From assembly GCA_022340425.1 (NCBI GenBank), contig JAJDNY010000061.1, positions 1 to 54,216 of the forward strand: DNA of 54,216 nucleotides, written 5' to 3'. Positions 41,940 to 54,213 of the stretch are shown one piece after another. The notes below the pieces were generated by a model. It was not told where the DNA came from. It saw nothing but the letters and a program-made list of their open reading frames with translations, and did not search any database. Every line of letters begins with the position of its first letter. The first letter of the stretch is position 1. Source of the stretch: Desulfobacteraceae bacterium (GTDB lineage Bacteria; Desulfobacterota; Desulfobacteria; Desulfobacterales; JAABRJ01). A program made the translations under genes and the position numbers.

Positions 41940-42581
41940 ATGGGCATCCAGGAGAGAAAAGAGCGGGAGCGGGAAAGACGCCGCCAGCAGATCATCGTGG
42001 CGGCCAAACGGGTGTTTTCGGAAAAAGGGTTCAGCCGGGCGACCATGGAGGATATCGCCAAGGCGGCGGAGTTGAGCCCGGGAACGCTCTACCTCTATTT
42101 CAAGAACAAGGACGAACTCTATGCCTCGCTTTCCATCCGGATCCTGCACTACCTTTTGATCCGCCTGGAGCACGTCGCCAAAGAGGCCAGCACCGACCTG
42201 GAGGCCCGCATGGCGAGTCTCAAAAAGGCCCTGCTGGATGTCTACGATTTCGATCCCCTGATGATCATCAACATGTTCCACCTGCAGTCCAGCGAAACCC
42301 TGCGCAACCTGTCGCTGGATCTTATGGCGGAAATCGAGGCCCTGTCGCGCAAATCCCTCGGCACCATGGCCCGGATCTTGGAAATGGGCATCCGCGAAGG
42401 CGTTTTCATCGACCGCCATCCCGTCGCCTTGGCCGATATCCTGTGGGCCCTTTTCTCTGGGGTTATCCTCTGGGAGGAGAGCAAGAAGGTCATCAATGCC
42501 GAAAAGGACTTCGTCCGCCCCACCTTCGAGCTGGCCTTTGATATCTTCGCCCGGGGCCTGCGGGCACCTCAACGGCACTAA
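41940..42581 (+). CDS. TetR/AcrR family regulator
   Basis: 213 residues. The basic lead GIQERKERERERRRQQIIVA runs into the HTH (KRVFSEKGFSRATMEDIAKA, ELSPGTLYLYFKNKDELY). The C-terminal domain resembles regulators of lipid or efflux genes but its ligand is not recognisable. The ATG at 41940 gives the usual N-terminus of this subgroup; a GTG nine bases earlier is also possible. Neither has a strong ribosome site. It ends against the convergent HAD-AIRS gene with a four-base overlap (42578-42581). No operator copy of the fatty-acid type is found near it, so its target is different. Confidence 0.82.
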   Translation: MGIQERKERERERRRQQIIVAAKRVFSEKGFSRATMEDIAKAAELSPGTLYLYFKNKDELYASLSIRILHYLLIRLEHVAKEASTDLEARMASLKKALLDVYDFDPLMIINMFHLQSSETLRNLSLDLMAEIEALSRKSLGTMARILEMGIREGVFIDRHPVALADILWALFSGVILWEESKKVINAEKDFVRPTFELAFDIFARGLRAPQRH

Positions 42582-44194
42582 AAGAGCCGGGTTATCTCAT
42601 CGACTTCGAAACACGGCCAGGAAACCGGCCGCCCGTCATAAAGCGCCTCGATTCCCTCGCCGGCCGCCAGCACCTCCCCGATAACGGCCACTGCAACGCC
42701 GGCCGAGCGGATGGCCGCCGCCAGGCCATCGGCGGCCGCGGCGGCGCAGGTGATTAGAAGGCTGCCGGAGCCGATCAGCCCCAGCGGGTTGAGCCCCAGG
42801 AGATCGGTCAGCTTGCGGGTTTCGGGCAATATCGGGATCCGCTCCATGTCCACCCGGATGCGATGCCCGCCCGCCTCCCCCAGTTCCTTGAGCGCTGCCG
42901 CCAGCCCCCCCTCGGTGACGTCGTGCATGGCGCTGACCCCCGGCGTGTCGGCGGCGATGCGGGCTTCGGTGATGATGCTGATCTGCTCCAGAAACTGCCG
43001 GCAGGCCTCGATTTCATCGGCGCCCACGCCCAGCGCCGCCAGCCGCCGCCCGAACTCGCGGGCGATGATGGCGGTGCCTTCCACCGCAACACCCTTGGTG
43101 AGCAGCACCTGGTCGCCGGGGGCCATGTTGCGTTTGTCCACCAGCGCGGCGCACGCGACGGTGCCGGCCAGCATCCCGATCACCACCGGGCGGGTGACCG
43201 CATCGGTGATTTCGGTGTGCCCGCCGCAAAGCGTGATCCCCCAACGCTGGCAGGTGGCCCGCAGCTCGTTCATCACCCGCCAGATTTCGGCGCCGGTGAC
43301 CCCCCGCGGAAACAACAGGGTGGTCAGCAGCCAGCGCGGCACGGCCCCAGAGGTGGCAATGTCGTTGGCGTTGACAACCACCGCATACTGGCCGATGGCA
43401 TCGGTGGCGAAGGTGATCGGATCGGATTTCAGCACCAGCACCTCATCGGAGGTCACGTCCACCGCGGCCGTGTCCTCACCGACGCCCGGTTTGACGATCA
43501 TGGCGGGATCCTCGAAGGGCAGCTGGGTGAAAAAGGCCCGCAAAAGGGCGTTGGGCAGCTTACCGCAGGGCAGCACGCGCCCCATGCCCAGGATCGGCAT
43601 CAGTTCCCCGAGGCTTGCGATGGTGAAGTCGCTCTGCAGGCGAATGGCCGCGGAATGCTCGCGGTTGTCCAGGAAAACGGTCACGGCTCCGGCCCGCTGA
43701 CCGGCCTCCACGTCGAACACATAATCCCCCACCATCAGGATTTCCTGGGGCGCCACGGCCAGCGTCCGGGCCGCCAGCAGAATGCCGTCGGCACTGGGTT
43801 TGGGGCGCACAGGAGCATCGCGGGAAACGATCAGGTCGAAATCCGTCACGCCGAGCCCGCTGAAATTCTCCAGCGCACGGGCCACCGAGCGGGCGCAGTT
43901 GCGGGTCACGATGCCCACCTTGAGGCCCCGCCGGCGCAGCTCACGCAGGATCTGCTCGGCCTCGGGGTTGGGCAGCGAGCGTGCGGCGGCCGCCATCTCG
44001 AAGCACTCCAGATCAGCGGCGGCGGCCTCACGCTGGCCGCCGACCGGCAGAGCCTCGAGAAACTCGAGCACCGGCATGTCGGCCGGGCAGCCGATGGCCG
44101 CCTTGAAGGTGCCAAAATCCAGGGCACCGGGCAGGGTCAGGGTGCCGTCAAAATCAAAGAGTACCGCCCGGATCACAAAGGGGATCGGGATCAT
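42578..44194 (-). CDS. HAD phosphatase fused to a PurM/AIRS-like domain
   Basis: 538 residues. The N-terminal HAD part (1-200) has motif I DFDGTLT (14-20), motif II VTRN (97-100), Lys in RPKPSADGI (K132) and motif IV VGDYVFDVEAG (155-165). The C-terminal part (about 207-538) is a HypE/SelD/ThiL-type AIR synthase fold: GVGEDTAAVDV, LKSDPITFATDAIGQYAVVV, NANDIATSGA, LCGGHTEITDAV, AMHDVTEGGLAAAL. It lacks the HypE C-terminal PRxC tail, so it is not a hydrogenase maturation HypE. The joint activity (ATP-dependent phosphorylation paired with phosphate removal) is unknown. The ATG at 44194 follows GGAAAG; it lies 73 bases after lysA. Confidence 0.82.
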   Translation of the reverse strand: MIPIPFVIRAVLFDFDGTLTLPGALDFGTFKAAIGCPADMPVLEFLEALPVGGQREAAAADLECFEMAAAARSLPNPEAEQILRELRRRGLKVGIVTRNCARSVARALENFSGLGVTDFDLIVSRDAPVRPKPSADGILLAARTLAVAPQEILMVGDYVFDVEAGQRAGAVTVFLDNREHSAAIRLQSDFTIASLGELMPILGMGRVLPCGKLPNALLRAFFTQLPFEDPAMIVKPGVGEDTAAVDVTSDEVLVLKSDPITFATDAIGQYAVVVNANDIATSGAVPRWLLTTLLFPRGVTGAEIWRVMNELRATCQRWGITLCGGHTEITDAVTRPVVIGMLAGTVACAALVDKRNMAPGDQVLLTKGVAVEGTAIIAREFGRRLAALGVGADEIEACRQFLEQISIITEARIAADTPGVSAMHDVTEGGLAAALKELGEAGGHRIRVDMERIPILPETRKLTDLLGLNPLGLIGSGSLLITCAAAAADGLAAAIRSAGVAVAVIGEVLAAGEGIEALYDGRPVSWPCFEVDEITRLF

Positions 44195-44267
44195 ATCGGA
44201 TCGCTTTCCGGAAAGGGCGCCAGCGCCCCTGCCTGCAGCTTGGAATGCGGGACTATCGGGGCTGCGA

Positions 44268-45536
44268 TCACCCGGCGCCGGGCCGCAAGACCCTGGGCGC
44301 AAAGGTCAGGGTCGCGAAATAATCCGCCGGCGTCTCCTCCCGCCGTATCAGTTCCACCGTGCCGTCGCTACGTAGCAGCAGTTCCTTGGGACGCAGCTTG
44401 CCGTTGTAGTTGAAGCCCATGGAATGCCCGTGCGCACCGGTATCCTGAATCAGCAGCAGATCCCCGGGAACGATGTCCGGCAGCGGGCGCTGGACAGCGA
44501 ACTTGTCGTTGTTCTCGCACAGCGATCCCACCACATCCACCACCCGCTCGTTTTTACCCTGGGGTTTGCCCACGACCTCGATGTGGTGGTAGGCGCCGTA
44601 CATTCCCGGGCGCATCAGTGCCGACATGCAGGCGTCCACGCCGATATAGCGCCGGTAAATGTTCTTTTCATTGATGGCGGTGGTCACCAGAACCCCGTGG
44701 GGCCCGGTCACGTAGCGCCCGCTTTCGAGAAAGAGCTTGGGCTGATACCCGTGCTGGTCTTCAAAGGCCGCCAGCAGGGCCGTGATCTGAAGCCCCATCC
44801 CGGCGAGGTCCAGGGGTGTTTCTTCAGGCCGGTAGGGTATCCCCAGGCCGCCGCCGATGTTGATGAACTCGAAGACAATCCCCAGTTCGGCGCTGATGCG
44901 CTCCACCTCTTGGAGCAGCATACGGGTGGTTTCCACCATATAATCCGCCTGAAGTTCGTTGGAAACCAGCATCGTGTGGAGCCCGAAGCGGCGGGCGCCG
45001 CGCTCCCGCGCCAATCGGTAGGCATCCACCAGCTGTTCGTGACTGACCCCGTACTTGGCCTCTTCGGGCTTGCCAATGATCGCGTTGCCGCCCCGACGGG
45101 GGCCGGGGTTGTAGCGAAAACAGATCAGTTCGGGCATCTGCGGGACCTTGGGCACCAGAGTGATGTCGTCCAGGTTGAGCAGGCAGCCGCCCTCGGCCGC
45201 GGCCAGTTGGAACTCCTCGCGGGTGGTGTTGTTGGAGGTGAACATGATCTCCTCACCCCGGGCGCCCACATCCCGGCTGAGGGTCAACTCGGTGCTCGAA
45301 CTGCAGTCGAAACCGAAACCGACTTGGCGGATCAGCGCCAGCACCGCAGGGTTGGGCAGCGCCTTGACGGCGTAATATTCTTGGAAAAAGCTTGCCCCGG
45401 CAAAGGCCTTTTTGAGGGTCTGACAGGTGTTTAGGATTCCCTTTTCGTCGTAGATGTGAAACGGGGTGCCGAAGAAATCGACGATCTTCGCCAGCCGAGG
45501 GGTCAGGCGGTTTTTGAAATCAGCGGACATGGGCAT
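44268..45536 (-). CDS. lysA: Diaminopimelate decarboxylase family protein
   Basis: 422 residues of fold III PLP decarboxylases. PLP Lys is K58 in YYAVKALPNP. Phosphate-loop FINIGGGLGIPYRPEE, ESGRYVTGPHG and the intersubunit Cys region VGSLCENNDKFA (usually CESxD) are present. It most likely decarboxylates meso-diaminopimelate to lysine, though related enzymes act on other D-amino acids. The ATG at 45536 follows AGGAGG with nine-base spacing. It lies downstream of the Lrp gene across a hairpin-rich gap, so lysine- or Lrp-dependent control is plausible. Confidence 0.85.
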   Translation of the reverse strand: MPMSADFKNRLTPRLAKIVDFFGTPFHIYDEKGILNTCQTLKKAFAGASFFQEYYAVKALPNPAVLALIRQVGFGFDCSSSTELTLSRDVGARGEEIMFTSNNTTREEFQLAAAEGGCLLNLDDITLVPKVPQMPELICFRYNPGPRRGGNAIIGKPEEAKYGVSHEQLVDAYRLARERGARRFGLHTMLVSNELQADYMVETTRMLLQEVERISAELGIVFEFINIGGGLGIPYRPEETPLDLAGMGLQITALLAAFEDQHGYQPKLFLESGRYVTGPHGVLVTTAINEKNIYRRYIGVDACMSALMRPGMYGAYHHIEVVGKPQGKNERVVDVVGSLCENNDKFAVQRPLPDIVPGDLLLIQDTGAHGHSMGFNYNGKLRPKELLLRSDGTVELIRREETPADYFATLTFAPRVLRPGAG

Positions 45537-47509: not shown

Positions 47510-49213
47510 ATGTACCTGGCCTACTACAACCTCAGCGCCAAGCCGTTTCAGATCAGCACCGACCCGGCCTTCCTGTGGCTGGGCCCCAAACACCGCGAAG
47601 CCCTGTCCACCCTGAGATACGGGGTGATGGACAACCGCGGTTTTCTGCTGCTGACCGGGGATGTCGGCACCGGCAAGACAACCCTGATTCATGCGCTGCT
47701 CAAAAGCCTCTCCCAGGAGGTGGTGGCGGCCAGCGTGCCGGACCCCGGGCTGTCACCACTGGACTTTTTCAACTATATCTCGCGGGGGTTTCATTTCGGC
47801 ACGCGCTTCGCCTCCAAAGGCGATTTTTTGGATCATTTCATCGATTTTCTGGAAAGATCGCATGCGGCCCACAAAAAGGTACTGCTGATCATCGACGAGT
47901 CCCAGCGCCTGACCTCCGAACTGCTGGAGGAAATCCGGCTGCTGTCCAATATCGAGAAGTACGAAAACAAGCTGCTCAACATTTTTTTTGTGGGCCAAAA
48001 CGAATTCAATCAGTTTCTGATGCTGCCGGAACACAAAGCCATCCGTCAGCGGATCACCATCAACTATCACATCACCCCGTTAACCGAAATCGAAACCGGG
48101 GCCTACGTCCGCCATCGGCTCAAGGTGGCCGGCGCCCGGATGGAGATCTTCGATGAGGGCGGCATCGGCGAGGTCTTTCGTTTTTCCAGCGGCTACCCCC
48201 GGCTGATCAACATCATTTGCGACCATGCGCTGCTTTCCGGGTTTATCAAAAGCGCGGAGGTCGTGACGGCGGCGATTGTGAGCGACTGCGCCGCCGATCT
48301 GACCCTGCCGCAACGCGACGTTCTGCAAGCCGAGATCGCCAAGACCGAGCGGCCGGAGCCCCCCCTGCCGGCCGCCGTGCGGGAGTCGGGCCCGGCCGCA
48401 CCAGCCCCGCAGCGAAACCGCTGGCAGCGTTCCGCCCTGCTGGTGGCGCTTCTCGCAGCGCTGCTGCTGGGCCTTTTCGGGCTTTACCCCCAGGGCTTCG
48501 AACGCCTGAAGACATTGTGGCACAGCCAGTTTCAGGGGATGACGGCCGGCACCGGGGCCCCCCCGCCGACCCAAGTCGCCCCGGAACCGCCCCCCCCGGC
48601 TGGGGCGCCCGGCACCCCGCCGCTTCCCTCCCCGAAACCGCCGGCGACACCCGCCCCGGAAACCCCAAAGCCTCCGGCCGCAACAGCCGCCGCGCCACAA
48701 ACCGCAACTCCTTTGAAGCCGGTTGCAGCAACGCCACCCGCCGAGCCCGTTTCAGCGACACCCGCAGCGCCCGCCGAAACCGCCGCCGGCACCCCGCCGG
48801 TTTCCCCCGTGAAACCTCCGGCGACGCCCACTCCGAAGACCCCAAAGCCGCCGGCCGCAACAGCCGCCGCTCCCCAAACCGCAGCCCCCCGGAAGCCGGT
48901 TGCAGCACCCCCACCCGCCGAGACCGTTACAGCGGCACCCGCAGCGCCCGCCGAAACCGCCGCCGGCACCCCGGCACCCGACGGAGACCCGGATAAACCG
49001 CTGCCGACTGTCCCGATGGAACCGCAGCCTCCGCCCGCTGGGCTCGAAGACCAGCGAGGCGCGCAAAATTTCGAACAAAAAGACGCACGAAAGCCGCTTC
49101 CGGCCAAGGCTGCAACCGAGGAGCTGCGGCAAGAAGACGCCGACGCCGACGCCGGTTCGGATCCGGGGGACATCATTGATTGGGTGCTGGAAAAAAACAA
49201 ACGGCGGCAATAG
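47510..49213 (+). CDS. ExeA-like AAA ATPase with Pro/Ala repeat tail
   Basis: 567 residues. An AAA domain of the ExeA/GspA type (MYLAYYNLSAKPF, Walker A GDVGTGKT at 50-57, VLLIIDESQRL, SGYPRLINIICDHALL) is followed by a membrane helix (about 306-326) and a long Pro/Ala/Thr-rich tail. The tail contains a 59-residue tandem repeat. It is a paralogue of the MshM-like protein at 11226 but has no SPOR domain. The tail would lie in the periplasm and may span to the wall. The link to a secretion or pilus system cannot be shown from neighbours. Confidence 0.8.
   Translation: MYLAYYNLSAKPFQISTDPAFLWLGPKHREALSTLRYGVMDNRGFLLLTGDVGTGKTTLIHALLKSLSQEVVAASVPDPGLSPLDFFNYISRGFHFGTRFASKGDFLDHFIDFLERSHAAHKKVLLIIDESQRLTSELLEEIRLLSNIEKYENKLLNIFFVGQNEFNQFLMLPEHKAIRQRITINYHITPLTEIETGAYVRHRLKVAGARMEIFDEGGIGEVFRFSSGYPRLINIICDHALLSGFIKSAEVVTAAIVSDCAADLTLPQRDVLQAEIAKTERPEPPLPAAVRESGPAAPAPQRNRWQRSALLVALLAALLLGLFGLYPQGFERLKTLWHSQFQGMTAGTGAPPPTQVAPEPPPPAGAPGTPPLPSPKPPATPAPETPKPPAATAAAPQTATPLKPVAATPPAEPVSATPAAPAETAAGTPPVSPVKPPATPTPKTPKPPAATAAAPQTAAPRKPVAAPPPAETVTAAPAAPAETAAGTPAPDGDPDKPLPTVPMEPQPPPAGLEDQRGAQNFEQKDARKPLPAKAATEELRQEDADADAGSDPGDIIDWVLEKNKRRQ
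48635..48974 (+). repeat. 177-bp tandem coding repeat (about two copies)
   Basis: Unit 1 runs 48635-48811 and unit 2 begins at 48812, encoding KPPATPxPxTPKPPAATAAA and following residues twice, with about 80% identity by eye. It lies in the periplasmic tail of the ExeA-like protein and keeps the frame. Confidence 0.8.
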
Positions 49214-49482: not shown

Positions 49483-51822
49483 TCAGCGGCGAACGGCTCT
49501 CACCGCCCCGCACTGCCAGTCGGCCATCTGGTCCACCTGCCAATCGGTTTCGCTGCGGGCCGAGACCACATCCACCACCCGACTCCAACCGTCCGAATAG
49601 CGGGTATAGTTTTTGGAGGTCCAGTACCAGACCGCGCCACCGGGGGTCGGAAAGCGCGGCGCTTTTTCGTGAATCCCGGCCAATTCTTCGACGGTGGGCA
49701 GGCGCCAGTCCGAAAAACCGCCGACGGCGAGATTCTCCACATATCTCGCGGCGGCCGTGTAATCCAGGCATTGGCCGGTGTCGGCACGCGAGTCCAGCAG
49801 ACACCAGGTGAGACCGGTTTGGGTGTCCAGCACGGTCCCGGGCTGTTTTTCCTGGAACCGGCCGCCGGTTGCCGCCAGCTGGCTGCGAAGGGCGCCGGCA
49901 ATCACCTGCCGCTTGCGCTCCAGTGCCTGTTGCTCCAGCCGGGCGATTTTTTCATCGATCACCGGCCGCAGACTGCTGTTGGGATAGGCTTTGAGATAAT
50001 CGACATAGACGGCCCGGGCGCCGGCCAGGTCATCACCGGCGGCCGCCGCCTTGGCGCTCAGACGGGCCAGGATCTCTTCGCCTCGCTGGTTGCGCCGAGC
50101 GGTTTCCTGCAGCTCTTCAACGACGGCGGTGCGGGGGTTTTCGGGGTATAGATCGATGAAGCGCTGGCAGAGGGAGATCGCCGCGGCCCAGTGGCCTTGG
50201 GCACGAAGTACGCCAAGCTGTTTTTCCAGGGCCAGAAAATACTCCGCGCTCATATCGTCCAAACGCCTGCGAACCTCATCGCGGTGACGGCCCCGGGGGT
50301 GGGCGTCTAAGTATGTCCGACAGGCGGCAATACGCTCTTCGACCTCCGCCGGGGCCGCGGCCTCGACGGCTCTGAAATCCGCATCATCGAGGGCCTCTGC
50401 GGCCGCGCGGGTGCGCTCCGCGACAATTTTGGCGCACGGAGTCGCGGCATACTGCTGACCGAGGGCCTGGTAGTGCGCGAGAGCCTCCGCGGGCCGCGCC
50501 GCTTCCGCCTGGGCGTCGGCCTCGGCAAGGGCTTGACGGCACGCCACCTCCTCCAGGGCCTGTCTTACGGACAGCAGTTTTTCCCGGATCTCGGCGGTGT
50601 ATTTGGCCCCTTCATGGGCGGCCAGATAATCCTGGAGAAGCATTTCTTTCTTGCCGAGATCCGGCTGCCCATCGACCTGCGCCATCAGCTGGCCGAAATC
50701 GGCCTTGGCGCGGCTGACCCCCAGCATCCAGGCCGAAGCAGCGCCCAGCACCACCAGCAGCGCCAGCACCATGAAGGACATGGCCAACCTGCGCTTCAAG
50801 TTGGTGGCGGCTTTTTTGGGCCCCAGGATCGCCCAGTTTTTCTGCCGGCAGTAGTCCTCGATATAGGCGCGGGCCTCATCGCCGTCCATGCCGTAATCCA
50901 CGGCGGCCTTGACCAGCACCTCGAAATACTCCGGCTTGATTTCACCGTCCAGACCGGCGACGTCGATGTCGGCGTTCAGGGCCGTCAGCTTCGAGCGCGC
51001 CCGGGAATAGTCGTAAGACTGGCGGCTTTCCTCGCTTTTGAAAATCTGCAGACACTGCCCGGCGAGAACCTCGCCGGCGGTTGTAACGGCATCCTTGCGG
51101 GCGACCTGACGGTAATGGGCCTCAACGGTCCGCGCCTTGACCTGCAACTCCTCCAGCCGCGCCCCGTTGGAAGCGTCGAGAAACGCGTAGAGGGATTTCT
51201 TGCCAACGACCTTGAGGTTGGCGTTGATGACCTTTTCGATGGCCTTGTCCAGCGGTTTGGCCCGCCCCTTTTCGTTGACGCCGCCTTTGCGAACCGGCAC
51301 CTTGAGCCGTTTGCGGACCGCCTCCTCGCTGACCGCCAGCATCTTGGCCAGCTTGGCGACCTCTTCGGCGGTGACGTAGCCTTTGCTGGCCCGAATGCTG
51401 AGATGTTTGTCGAGCTGGGCGATCTTTTCCTTCTGCTTCAGCCGGATGCGGTTGCGAATCTCGGTCTCTTGGATCCCGTGCAACTCGGCCAGCTTGAAAA
51501 CCTCCTCTTTCGTGATGTAGCCCTTGCTCATCCGGATCTCGAGATGGCGGTCGATGGCGGCAAATTTTTTGGCGTCGCGCTGGCGCGTCAGTTCGAGGGC
51601 CGCTCGGGCTTCTTTATCGCGGAGTTCGGGGTCTGACATGACCCGTCGAATTTCGGGGATCAGGCCGATGTATTTCTTGGCCAGAATGGCCTTGGTGGGG
51701 TGATTGCGAAATTGGCTCCAGCGGGCCTGCATCTTCTTGATGGCGGTTTCGATCCGGTGCAGATCCGTCTCGGGCGGATCCACCGCAAGCTCCAGCAGCA
51801 AATAAAAATTTTCCCGCTCCAT
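49483..51822 (-). CDS. Membrane-anchored Hsp70-partner-like protein with DUF1566 domain
   Basis: 779 residues. N-terminal residues 1-75 (NFYLLLELAVDPPETDLHRI...IPEIRRVMSDPELRDKEA) and 208-275 (SLYAFLDASNG...QIFKSEESRQSYDYSRA) look like degenerate J-type segments without an HPD. Between them a 45-residue repeat occurs twice (84-128, 131-175; RMSKGYITKEEV and RASKGYVTAEEV). After a basic stop-transfer side (NLKRRLA) comes a membrane helix (348-367), then helical TPR-like periplasmic segments and a C-terminal DUF1566/Lcl domain (about 640-779; FSDWRLPTVEEL, YWTSKNYTRYSDGW). The ATG at 51822 follows GAGG; a TTG six codons earlier is less likely. It is downstream of grpE-like and hsp70-like genes on the same strand. 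Confidence 0.75.
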   Translation of the reverse strand: MERENFYLLLELAVDPPETDLHRIETAIKKMQARWSQFRNHPTKAILAKKYIGLIPEIRRVMSDPELRDKEARAALELTRQRDAKKFAAIDRHLEIRMSKGYITKEEVFKLAELHGIQETEIRNRIRLKQKEKIAQLDKHLSIRASKGYVTAEEVAKLAKMLAVSEEAVRKRLKVPVRKGGVNEKGRAKPLDKAIEKVINANLKVVGKKSLYAFLDASNGARLEELQVKARTVEAHYRQVARKDAVTTAGEVLAGQCLQIFKSEESRQSYDYSRARSKLTALNADIDVAGLDGEIKPEYFEVLVKAAVDYGMDGDEARAYIEDYCRQKNWAILGPKKAATNLKRRLAMSFMVLALLVVLGAASAWMLGVSRAKADFGQLMAQVDGQPDLGKKEMLLQDYLAAHEGAKYTAEIREKLLSVRQALEEVACRQALAEADAQAEAARPAEALAHYQALGQQYAATPCAKIVAERTRAAAEALDDADFRAVEAAAPAEVEERIAACRTYLDAHPRGRHRDEVRRRLDDMSAEYFLALEKQLGVLRAQGHWAAAISLCQRFIDLYPENPRTAVVEELQETARRNQRGEEILARLSAKAAAAGDDLAGARAVYVDYLKAYPNSSLRPVIDEKIARLEQQALERKRQVIAGALRSQLAATGGRFQEKQPGTVLDTQTGLTWCLLDSRADTGQCLDYTAAARYVENLAVGGFSDWRLPTVEELAGIHEKAPRFPTPGGAVWYWTSKNYTRYSDGWSRVVDVVSARSETDWQVDQMADWQCGAVRAVRR

Positions 51823-51930
51823 AGACTGCCTCTGTTTCAACTTCGCTCACTCAGCCGGCCGCTCCGGGGTTGCCGGTTGTCACAAGATAAAAACAAGCCC
51901 CGCCGTGCCCCCCCGGTGATGGTCGCGGCT

Positions 51931-53592
51931 TTAATAGACCACCAGGCTCTGGCTGCGCATCTTGGCCGCTGCCAGCTCCTCGCCCTGGATGACGGAGGCG
52001 GTCTCGATGGAGGCGTCCACCTGGCGGCCCTCGGTGGATTCCACCGCCTTGATCTTCAAGCGCCCCTCCTTGTTCAGATTGAAGGAGATATCCACGGGGG
52101 TGTCGGCGGCCAGGCCGCGCGGAAGCCGCATAACGGCCGTGCCGATTTCGATGGCATACTCCGGCGGGATGCTCTTTTCACTGGTCTCGGCCTCCATGAT
52201 GCGAATCAGGACCGTTTCCTGGTCATCCACCGCGGTGAAGAACCGTTTGGCAGCCTCCACCGGCACACCGGTGTTGCGCAAAATCACGCTGTAGACGATC
52301 TCCTCGTTTTGGGCGTTGTTGACGACGATGCCGAAGCTCTTGCTGGTGACGTCCTTTACCTTGACCAGCGAACTTTTGACCGACGGCAGGGTGTAGCCCT
52401 CTTCGTCGGCTATCTCCTGGGCGGCCGCTTCGACCTCTTCGGGGTTGAGTGCGACATCCCCTTGCAGTTCCTCCACCTTGCGATTGGTTTTGGCCGCAAT
52501 GCGGCGCACCAGACCATCGTTCAGGGAGAGTTTCCAGCCGAAAATCGCCGCCCCCTTGGCCACCGCCTCATCCGGATCGAAGATCTTGGGTTCTTTGCCG
52601 AACTCTTGCTGGATACGCGCGGCGACCTGGGGCATTCGGGTGGAGCCGCCGACGAGGATGATCTCATCAAAATTATTATAACCTTTTTTCTTGGCCTCCT
52701 CCAGCATCTCATGGGTCAGATGGACGGTGCGCTCCAGCAGATCCGAAGTGATCTCCTCGAACTTGCTGCGCTGCAGCTCGACTTTGACCCGCTCACCGCC
52801 GTGGGTGATTGAAATAGGCGTTTTTTCTCGCTGAGAAAGAACCTTTTTGGCTTTTTCAGCGGAAAGCTGCAGGTCCTGACAGGTGTCCGGGTCCTCCAGG
52901 ATTTCCTCATCGCTGCCGGTCTGGCTCTGAAATTCCTGTACCAGGTAGGCCACGATACGATCGTCCCAGTCCTTGCCGCCGAGGTTGTGATCGCCACCGG
53001 TGCAGATCACCTGGATGGCGTCGGGCTGGATATCGATCAGGGTGATATCGAAGGTGCCGCCGCCAAGGTCATAGACCATCACCACCCGTTTGTCGGAAAT
53101 CGCAACAGTGCCATAGGCGATGGCCGCCGCGGTGGGTTCGTTGATGATCTGGCGGACATTGAAGCCCGCAATCTCACCGGCCATGCGGGTGGCTTCGCGT
53201 TCGTTGATACCGAAATAGGCCGGGCAGGTGATGACCACGTCGGTGATCTTCGACCCCAGGCTCTGCTCGGCGTCCTGGGCGACCTTGCGCAGGATGTAAC
53301 TGGAAATTTCCTCGGCGCGATAGGTCTTGTCGTCGTAGCTGAACAGATAGTCAGGTTCACCCATGGAGCGTTTGATGAAGCTGACCACCTCATTGGGGTA
53401 GATCTTGCTGCTTTCCTTGGCCACGTCGCCGACGACGATATTGCCCCCGTCGAAAAACACAACGGAGGGGGTAACCCGCTGGTTTTCGGCATTGGGCACC
53501 ACCACCGCCTTGCCGTACTCGTCCACATAGGCGATGGAGGTATAGGTGGTGCCGAGGTCGATCCCGAAAATCCTCTTCATCTGATCACTCAT
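51931..53592 (-). CDS. Short Hsp70 family protein without a helical lid
   Basis: 553 residues. The nucleotide-binding domain is intact: GIDLGTTYTSIAYVDE, VYDLGGGTFDITLIDI, EPTAAAIAYG and LVGGSTRMPQV. The substrate part (about 375-553) has a beta-sandwich-like pattern (VTSKSFGIVV, NTGVPVEAAKRFFTAVDDQE) and then ends; the roughly 80-residue alpha-helical lid of DnaK and its EEVD-like tail are missing. It is therefore a divergent, probably dedicated chaperone rather than the housekeeping DnaK. GAGGG precedes the ATG. It lies between grpE-like and the DUF1566 protein. Confidence 0.88.
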   Translation of the reverse strand: MSDQMKRIFGIDLGTTYTSIAYVDEYGKAVVVPNAENQRVTPSVVFFDGGNIVVGDVAKESSKIYPNEVVSFIKRSMGEPDYLFSYDDKTYRAEEISSYILRKVAQDAEQSLGSKITDVVITCPAYFGINEREATRMAGEIAGFNVRQIINEPTAAAIAYGTVAISDKRVVMVYDLGGGTFDITLIDIQPDAIQVICTGGDHNLGGKDWDDRIVAYLVQEFQSQTGSDEEILEDPDTCQDLQLSAEKAKKVLSQREKTPISITHGGERVKVELQRSKFEEITSDLLERTVHLTHEMLEEAKKKGYNNFDEIILVGGSTRMPQVAARIQQEFGKEPKIFDPDEAVAKGAAIFGWKLSLNDGLVRRIAAKTNRKVEELQGDVALNPEEVEAAAQEIADEEGYTLPSVKSSLVKVKDVTSKSFGIVVNNAQNEEIVYSVILRNTGVPVEAAKRFFTAVDDQETVLIRIMEAETSEKSIPPEYAIEIGTAVMRLPRGLAADTPVDISFNLNKEGRLKIKAVESTEGRQVDASIETASVIQGEELAAAKMRSQSLVVY

Positions 53593-53616
53593 TGATGGCC
53601 CTCATTGCGAAAGAAA

Positions 53617-54213
53617 TTAATTGCCCTTGTAATCGTAGACTGCGACCATTTCCGGCCGAATCACCTTTCCCTCCCACTCGTAGCCGCAGCGCAGGCTCTC
53701 AGCGACCCTTTTGTCCTTTTCGGGATCGGCTGTGGCGACTTTTTTGGCCGCCCGCTGGCGAGTGGGATCAAACCCATCCCCCGGGCAGATGAAGGATTTC
53801 ACCCCCTGCCAGTAAAAGATGTCCTCCAGGTCGGATGGAATGGTTTCCAGAAACTTGAAGATCTTGACCGGATCGCGGACTTCGGAATCCAGTGAGCGGT
53901 AGTGCCGCAGCCACTTGCGGATGTCGTCGATGACCTTGATCACGTCCATCAGCACCGACATCAGATGCTTCTTGACGATATCGTTTTTGTATTCCTGCAA
54001 CTCCTGGTGGAGGGTGTCGATGATGTGCTCTTTGTGGGCATCGTACTTGAGTTTGGCCTGAAACTCGCCCACCAGATGGTCCATGCCGGCCTGCAGCCCG
54101 TCCAGCCGGTTTAGCAGTCCCCCCATGCCCTCGGCAGCGACCGCCTCCGGCCCAGACTCGGCCGCATCCCGCGGCGGCAGCGCAGCCCCTGCCGGCGCGT
54201 CCTGAATCGCCAT
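53617..54213 (-). CDS. GrpE-like nucleotide exchange factor
   Basis: 198 residues visible. A helical region (about 50-110: KEHIIDTLHQELQEYKNDIV) and an end, YEWEGKVIRPEMVAVYDYKG, match the GrpE pattern (helix plus beta wing), but with a longer middle (YRSLDSEVRDPVKIFKFLET). GrpE releases ADP from Hsp70. Its stop lies 24 bases before the hsp70-like gene on the same strand, which supports pairing. The ATG at 54213 is near the window edge, so an earlier start or more of the operon may lie outside. Confidence 0.75.
   Translation of the reverse strand: MAIQDAPAGAALPPRDAAESGPEAVAAEGMGGLLNRLDGLQAGMDHLVGEFQAKLKYDAHKEHIIDTLHQELQEYKNDIVKKHLMSVLMDVIKVIDDIRKWLRHYRSLDSEVRDPVKIFKFLETIPSDLEDIFYWQGVKSFICPGDGFDPTRQRAAKKVATADPEKDKRVAESLRCGYEWEGKVIRPEMVAVYDYKGN

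Follow-up and report, generated by a model that had tools for sequence, protein, structure and literature searches.

A conserved GrpE-Hsp70-membrane protein gene trio of Desulfobacterales with a lidless Hsp70 and a predicted J-like partner

HSP70, GrpE, and a fibronectin type III (FNIII) protein with a DnaJ domain constitute a theme of the GAP1-N2 GTPase systems, which have been placed among conflict systems (Kaur et al. 2020, eLife, PMC7159879). This theme is the closest known kind to the gene trio analyzed here, which is located on contig JAJDNY010000061.1 of a Desulfobacteraceae bacterium; the window comprises this whole contig of 54216 bases. The trio consists of the last three genes of the window, all co-directional on the minus strand, and encodes a GrpE-like protein, an Hsp70, and a 779-aa membrane protein, which we refer to as P1:

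53617..54216, minus strand: GrpE-like nucleotide exchange factor (Pfam GrpE, PF01025, 8.1e-15, residues 60-192; 55.3 bits against a cut-off of 25.8), N-terminus cut by the contig end
51931..53592, minus strand: Hsp70 of 553 aa with nucleotide-binding domain (NBD) and the beta part of the substrate-binding domain (SBD-beta), without helical lid (Pfam HSP70, 4e-109; PDB alignments; AlphaFold2 and VIA-align)
49483..51822, minus strand: P1, predicted inner-membrane protein of 779 aa with J-like, tetratricopeptide repeat (TPR)-like, and Lcl_C parts (ATG at 51822)

The contact between the His-Pro-Asp (HPD) motif of J proteins and Arg167 (R167) of DnaK is the textbook trigger of Hsp70 machines. The HPD aspartate acts by displacing R167 from aspartates of the linker and the SBD (PMC7289447), and in Escherichia coli, DnaK R167H suppresses DnaJ D35N (PMC5519331). 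Our most informative finding is that, judged by alignment, all members of this network (HPD-Asp, R167, linker, and SBD-Asp) are altered in the trio. The corresponding features of the Hsp70 are as follows:

53149..53151, minus strand: Gln148, at the position of DnaK Arg167, the HPD contact (Q/H/G in 69/69 family members)
52366..52527, minus strand: mostly helical insert of about 54 residues (356-409) that separates the NBD from the linker (aligned with the DnaK of the same genome; secondary structure of the model)
52351..52365, minus strand: interdomain linker VKVKD, replacing VLLLD (VLLLD in 28/28 control Hsp70s)
51994..52362, minus strand: SBD-beta, with N507 at the position of DnaK D481 (alignment; second stretch of the 2v7y alignment)

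Among 69 family Hsp70s, the R167 position is occupied by Q (56), H (12), or G (1) and never by R, which is found in 29 of 29 other Hsp70s from Desulfobacterales genomes. The VLLLD linker is present in 0 of 35 family members, which share the form VKVK[DN]. Furthermore, the D481 position holds N in 31 and D in 4 of these 35 members, compared to D in all 23 matched controls (D.D). On the side of P1, 71 of 76 relatives have T where HPD has its aspartate, 3 have S, and one each has I and Q, whereas none has D; the HPD tripeptide is absent from all 76, with HP-T/S/I/Q or HAT in its place. The contact thus appears neutralised on both sides, much like in the laboratory pair of DnaJ D35N and DnaK R167H, which would make the trio a natural test of J-type control without it. 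An altered network of this kind may amount to an orthogonal Hsp70 cycle, and the trio may represent an orthogonal Hsp70/co-chaperone set.

The AlphaFold2 model of the Hsp70 (predicted local distance difference test score, pLDDT, 86) aligns with ATP-state DnaK (4b9q) at Z 46.8 and 2.4 A over 484 residues, and the catalytic signatures GIDLGTT, K74, NEPTAAA, and DLGGGTFD are invariant or nearly so among 35 family members. SBD-beta is present, and every family member ends before the helical lid according to alignment and model; we call the 553-aa protein a lidless Hsp70 homologue. It is accompanied in the same genome by a housekeeping DnaK and GrpE on contig C63, as well as by canonical J-domain proteins.

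P1 can be divided into an N-terminal part with two J-like regions and a duplicated module, a membrane helix, and an outer part:

51583..51822, minus strand: J-like region 1, residues 1-80, with the motif WSxxRNHPTK (VIA-align Z 8.4 to 6rzy, 69 residues)
51694..51705, minus strand: NHPT, residues 40-43, occupying the helix II/III loop at the place of HPD in J domains (76 P1 relatives)
51436..51573, minus strand: 45-residue module, copy 1, residues 84-129 (M1-M2 profile match, E 9e-18)
51295..51432, minus strand: 45-residue module, copy 2, residues 131-176 (same profile match, E 9e-18)
50968..51210, minus strand: J-like region 2, residues 205-285, without HP motif (VIA-align Z 8.2 to 2dn9 and 7.0 to 5nro_B; profile P 1.3e-5)
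50713..50787, minus strand: membrane helix near residues 346-370 (hydropathy of 2.38 at residue 346; charge bias points to a cytoplasmic N-terminus)
49873..50700, minus strand: helical, TPR-like region, predicted to be periplasmic (weak matches to TPR_6 and BamD; common to DUF4388 proteins)
49543..49839, minus strand: Lcl_C/DUF1566 domain, residues 662-760 (PF07603, 4.5e-13)

An AlphaFold2 model of P1 residues 1-319, built from 50 sequences (mean pLDDT 85), contains two helical units, 1-80 and 205-285, the first of which places helix II at 21-37, a loop at 38-44, and helix III at 45-63. For both regions, the best Foldseek matches are mostly J domains with probabilities of 0.9-1.0, but with E values of only 0.4-3, which are not significant. 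VIA-align yields matches over whole J domains with Z 8.4 (residues 2-73) and Z 8.2 (residues 204-282), while unrelated three-helix rows reach Z 7. Profile-profile comparisons with the genome's own J domains are weak (P 1.6e-4 for region 1 and 1.3e-5 for region 2); Pfam returned no DnaJ match to P1, and a J profile from the window's genome gave only marginal scores. The sequence-only reading of this DNA had suggested comparing a predicted structure with J domains, and both N-terminal regions are indeed predicted by Foldseek and VIA-align to fold like J domains, the evidence leaning towards a four-helix J fold. Since none of the 76 P1s contains HPD, we call P1 J-like and not a J protein. Homeodomain-like matches to residues 82-136 were judged to be a generic three-helix match. 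The two 45-residue copies are a true duplication, matching each other at a profile-profile E of 9e-18 with 45% identity, and longer P1 variants carry a third copy of the module.

P1 has one strong hydrophobic helix, and in most family members, as in P1 itself, lysine and arginine residues are found mainly on its N-terminal side. Because of this distribution, the first 340 residues would be cytoplasmic and the remainder periplasmic. The Lcl_C profile match (PF07603, the DUF1566 of the sequence-only reading) exceeds its cut-off with 49.9 bits versus 34.9. The C-terminal domain of Legionella Lcl (Lcl-CTD) binds sulphated glycosaminoglycans (PMC11162425), and by analogy the outer end of P1 looks like a putative sugar-binding part, with binding shown for Legionella Lcl only. 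No fn3 match was found in P1 with Pfam, and TPR-like and Lcl_C regions are present instead. Taken together, Pfam, alignments, profiles, and hydropathy confirmed the gene content that had been read from the sequence at the outset, i.e., three co-directional genes, a lidless Hsp70, and a 779-aa protein combining a 45-residue duplication, a membrane helix, and DUF1566.

A scan of GTDB genomes, whose pattern favours WSxxRNHP and may miss divergent forms, revealed 80 P1-type loci, all but a handful from Desulfobacterales or deltaproteobacterial metagenome-assembled genomes. Operon completeness was determined by BLAST for the 67 testable loci with at least 2.9 kb of upstream sequence: the Hsp70 is encoded directly upstream of P1 in 64 of them, and the full order GrpE-Hsp70-P1 is found in 60. 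The three genes therefore co-occur, which was one of the two tests on which the sequence-only reading had staked its proposal, and this co-occurrence together with the predicted J-like folds lends good support to a dedicated inner-membrane chaperone system. Many sulfate reducers belonging to Desulfobacterales carry such a trio. The P1 N-terminus was identified in 63 of 241 Desulfobacterales genomes; among 297 genomes of the phylum, only 6 matches were found, all of them in Desulfobacterales. It should be noted that the GrpE-like gene runs off the contig end. A homologue from the same genus (L040; loci are cited by our own numbers) comprises 276 aa, and the match begins at its residue 79. By this comparison, about 78 N-terminal residues fall outside the window and the gene is incomplete here. 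Because the contig ends there and the homologue is longer, the start at 54213 cannot be trusted and is probably a contig-edge artefact. In L104, L127, and L152, a PAS domain is fused to the GrpE N-terminus. GrpE N-termini similar to PAS-GrpE were also seen in L118 and, by eye, in L113, L121, and L124.

Homologous trios were also found in other contexts. L147 (Aminicenantes) encodes GrpE, a short Hsp70, an Hsp70-VWA protein, a P1-type N-terminus joined to a double zinc ribbon (DZR) and fn3, and GAP1-N2 (2.7e-39), as well as DO-GTPase-like proteins below the cut-off. The same gene order occurs in L146, the second locus of one Desulfobacterales genome, and the P1 N-termini of both loci are homologous to that of the window's P1. 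L150 (Clostridium) encodes GrpE, both Hsp70s, and a P1-type protein, and L149 (SAR324) holds a trio in which the outer part of P1 (L149:10001-12106) consists of PEGA and pentapeptide repeats. The short Hsp70s of these four loci are 59-64% identical to the window's. In the Hsp70 tree, short Hsp70s form one clade apart from DnaK and VWA forms, and the tree is compatible with either order of the GAP1-N2 and membrane forms. The window's genome has no GAP1-N2 (PF20013); of 58 relatives, 2 have it, including the genome of L146. CoCoNuT systems (PMC11090510), which have Hsp70-like domains as well, were set aside, as their text mentions no GrpE or DnaJ, and phage libraries contained only generic Hsp70/GrpE/Lcl_C matches.

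The chassis of P1 is shared with a second protein type. In other Desulfobacterales genomes, the same arrangement of transmembrane helix (TM), TPR, and Lcl_C carries DUF4388 instead of the J-like part. The two chassis types nearly exclude each other: strong DUF4388 forms (60 genomes) and P1 (63) overlap in 3 of 241 genomes versus 15.7 expected (P 2.6e-6), or 1 versus 6.2 expected when counted by family (P 0.002); common descent inflates these P values. Furthermore, seven loci (L078, L079, L080, L082, L120, L144, and L154) have a DUF4388-type gene directly upstream of the trio; in L079, a cNMP-binding/PilZ protein is encoded between this gene and the trio, with similar open reading frames (ORFs) in L080 and L082. 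P1s of 606-662 aa without Lcl_C were observed in L125, L126, and L130, and short P1s also occur in the three genomes with both chassis types.

We give an even chance to the reading that the trio is a dedicated Hsp70 system at the inner membrane that serves as a sensor or switch. A ligand from the envelope or surface, probably a carbohydrate, would bind to the TPR and Lcl_C parts of P1 in the periplasm, and the state of these parts would change how the J-like regions are presented in the cytoplasm. These regions would dock on the trio Hsp70 and not on the housekeeping DnaK, because the Asp-Arg contact of DnaJ and DnaK is gone on both sides. The Hsp70 may respond by ATP-driven docking and undocking. 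Since it lacks the lid, long-lived clamping of clients is unlikely; its contacts would be short-lived, and the output would be a change of partner or complex and not client refolding. GrpE would reset the Hsp70 and, in some species, might add a further signal through the fused PAS domain. The best candidates for an output partner are the DUF4388 proteins. In favour of this reading are the co-occurrence of the three genes, the changes on both sides of the HPD-R167 interface, and the signs of a sensor context: PAS-GrpE fusions, DUF4388 genes and a cNMP-binding/PilZ protein next to trios, the shared chassis whose DUF4388 form is nearly exclusive of P1, the PEGA and pentapeptide outer part in SAR324, and the glycosaminoglycan binding of Legionella Lcl-CTD. 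A more specific version of this reading is put forward only tentatively, as a possibility that we do not expect to hold in full: Hsp70 and its J-like partner may have jointly lost the HPD-Asp/Arg167/linker-Asp/SBD-Asp network, and the resulting orthogonal lidless cycle may relay the signal of an envelope ligand across the membrane, PAS-GrpE being a second input. The trio also suggests a signalling-switch role for an Hsp70.

Several observations weigh against the sensor or switch reading. An adjacent Hsp70 is missing in three of the 67 testable loci, and no cytoplasmic output gene is conserved, most neighbours being housekeeping genes (hypAB, EF-G, dxs). HP-T might still stimulate an Hsp70, and loss of the aspartate is no proof of a different cycle. 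Moreover, a single AlphaFold2 model and middling fold scores underlie the J-like call, and homeodomain-like rows reach Z 7 on the same model. Finally, the near-exclusion of the two chassis types may in part or largely follow lineage.

The alternative that survives best is a specialised membrane J-protein system, in which P1 would recruit an otherwise normal chaperone to that membrane for folding or assembling particular envelope proteins or lipoproteins. A complete trio whose Hsp70 retains the ATPase signature motifs and SBD-beta fits this role. So does the S49 peptidase gene found downstream of the trio in L085, a position taken in 16 loci by a cluster of related genes. However, the missing lid, HP-T, the altered linker, and the neutralised R167 and D481 remove parts used in canonical client clamping, and Lcl_C and PEGA resemble ligand binders, not clients; we consider this explanation rather unlikely. 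More doubtful still is a conflict or defence module derived from the GAP1-N2 GTPase systems, in which P1 would sense an envelope attack and the Hsp70 would trigger an effector. Its attraction lies in the homologous trio next to GAP1-N2, DO-GTPase-like, and Hsp70-VWA genes in L147, the same order in L146, and the grouping of GAP1-N2 systems with conflict systems by Kaur et al. (PMC7159879). The Desulfobacterales trio, however, has no effector beside it, the window's genome has no GAP1-N2, no PADLOC match of weight was obtained, and viral contigs gave no match; the frequent housekeeping neighbours at many loci speak against a mobile or defence island, which leaves this module improbable.

Regarding these neighbours, hypB-like genes were observed just upstream of the trio in 20 loci and hypA-like genes in 16 (e.g., L085, L087, L088, L089, L092, and L093); hypAB, EF-G, and dxs were set aside as system parts and judged to be lineage-specific neighbours.

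In mitochondria, Pam18 and Pam16 recruit Hsp70, and Pam16-type proteins have an inner-membrane-associated degenerate J domain without HPD. A translocation motor, in which an Hsp70 recruited by the J-like membrane protein moves another protein through the inner membrane by pulling or pushing, would match this arrangement with its HPD-less J-like membrane protein and adjacent Hsp70 and GrpE, but it is very improbable, and the suggestion of the sequence-only reading that the system drives something across the membrane is not borne out. Among the genes recurring beside the trio, none was recognised as a channel or translocase, an Hsp70 on the cytoplasmic side could do no more than push or hold, and the outer domain is a putative ligand binder.

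Additional observations concern other genes of the window and its genome. Convergent to P1, window positions 47510-49213 on the plus strand encode an ATPase that has a long tail rich in Pro and Ala and resembles a PEP-CTERM-associated family (TIGR03015, 4e-76, under the cut-off). A 574-aa ORF at 42578-44302 on the minus strand appears by eye to join a HAD-like phosphatase to a HypE/AIR-synthase-like part, and an ORF with a similar start is found at L055:9937-11556. Elsewhere in the window's genome, L074 (G000:C175) contains a second GrpE-Hsp70 pair with a nearby J-domain ORF, and L073:14285-19095 (G000:C192) contains tandem large divergent Hsp70-like ORFs of 926 and 645 aa, with similar pairs in several relatives.

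Compared with known systems, the trio would fill the same three roles as the housekeeping DnaK-DnaJ-GrpE set and has the same folds, a predicted J-like one in the case of P1; it differs from this set by the missing lid, the insert before the linker, the changes R167 to Q, VLLLD to VKVKD, D481 to N, and HPD to HPT, and the membrane partner. With Pam16, P1 shares a predicted inner-membrane-associated J-like domain without HPD; unlike Pam16, it has two J-like regions per polypeptide, a conserved HP-T loop, and a periplasmic ligand-type domain, and no import channel accompanies it. The DUF4388-TM-TPR-Lcl_C proteins have the membrane, TPR, and Lcl_C parts in common with P1 (18-54% identity over matched stretches), whereas their cytoplasmic part is DUF4388 and no Hsp70 match was found in the surrounding stretch examined. 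GAP1-N2 systems, like the trio, combine GrpE and Hsp70 with a protein whose N-terminus is of the DnaJ type, which in the window is J-like by predicted fold; unlike them, the trio lacks GAP1, GTPase, second Hsp70, and FNIII, and its partner is a membrane TPR-Lcl_C protein. The sequence-only reading had recognised no named system with this layout. This stands for the layout with the membrane-TPR-Lcl_C protein, of which we found no description in the literature, the main text of PMC7159879 making no mention of DUF1566, Lcl, or DUF4388, but not for the core, which is the published GAP1-N2 theme. The trio thereby extends this chaperone theme to a GTPase-free membrane form: the GrpE/Hsp70/DnaJ-type core is known, and a membrane-TPR-Lcl_C chassis takes the place of the FNIII part.

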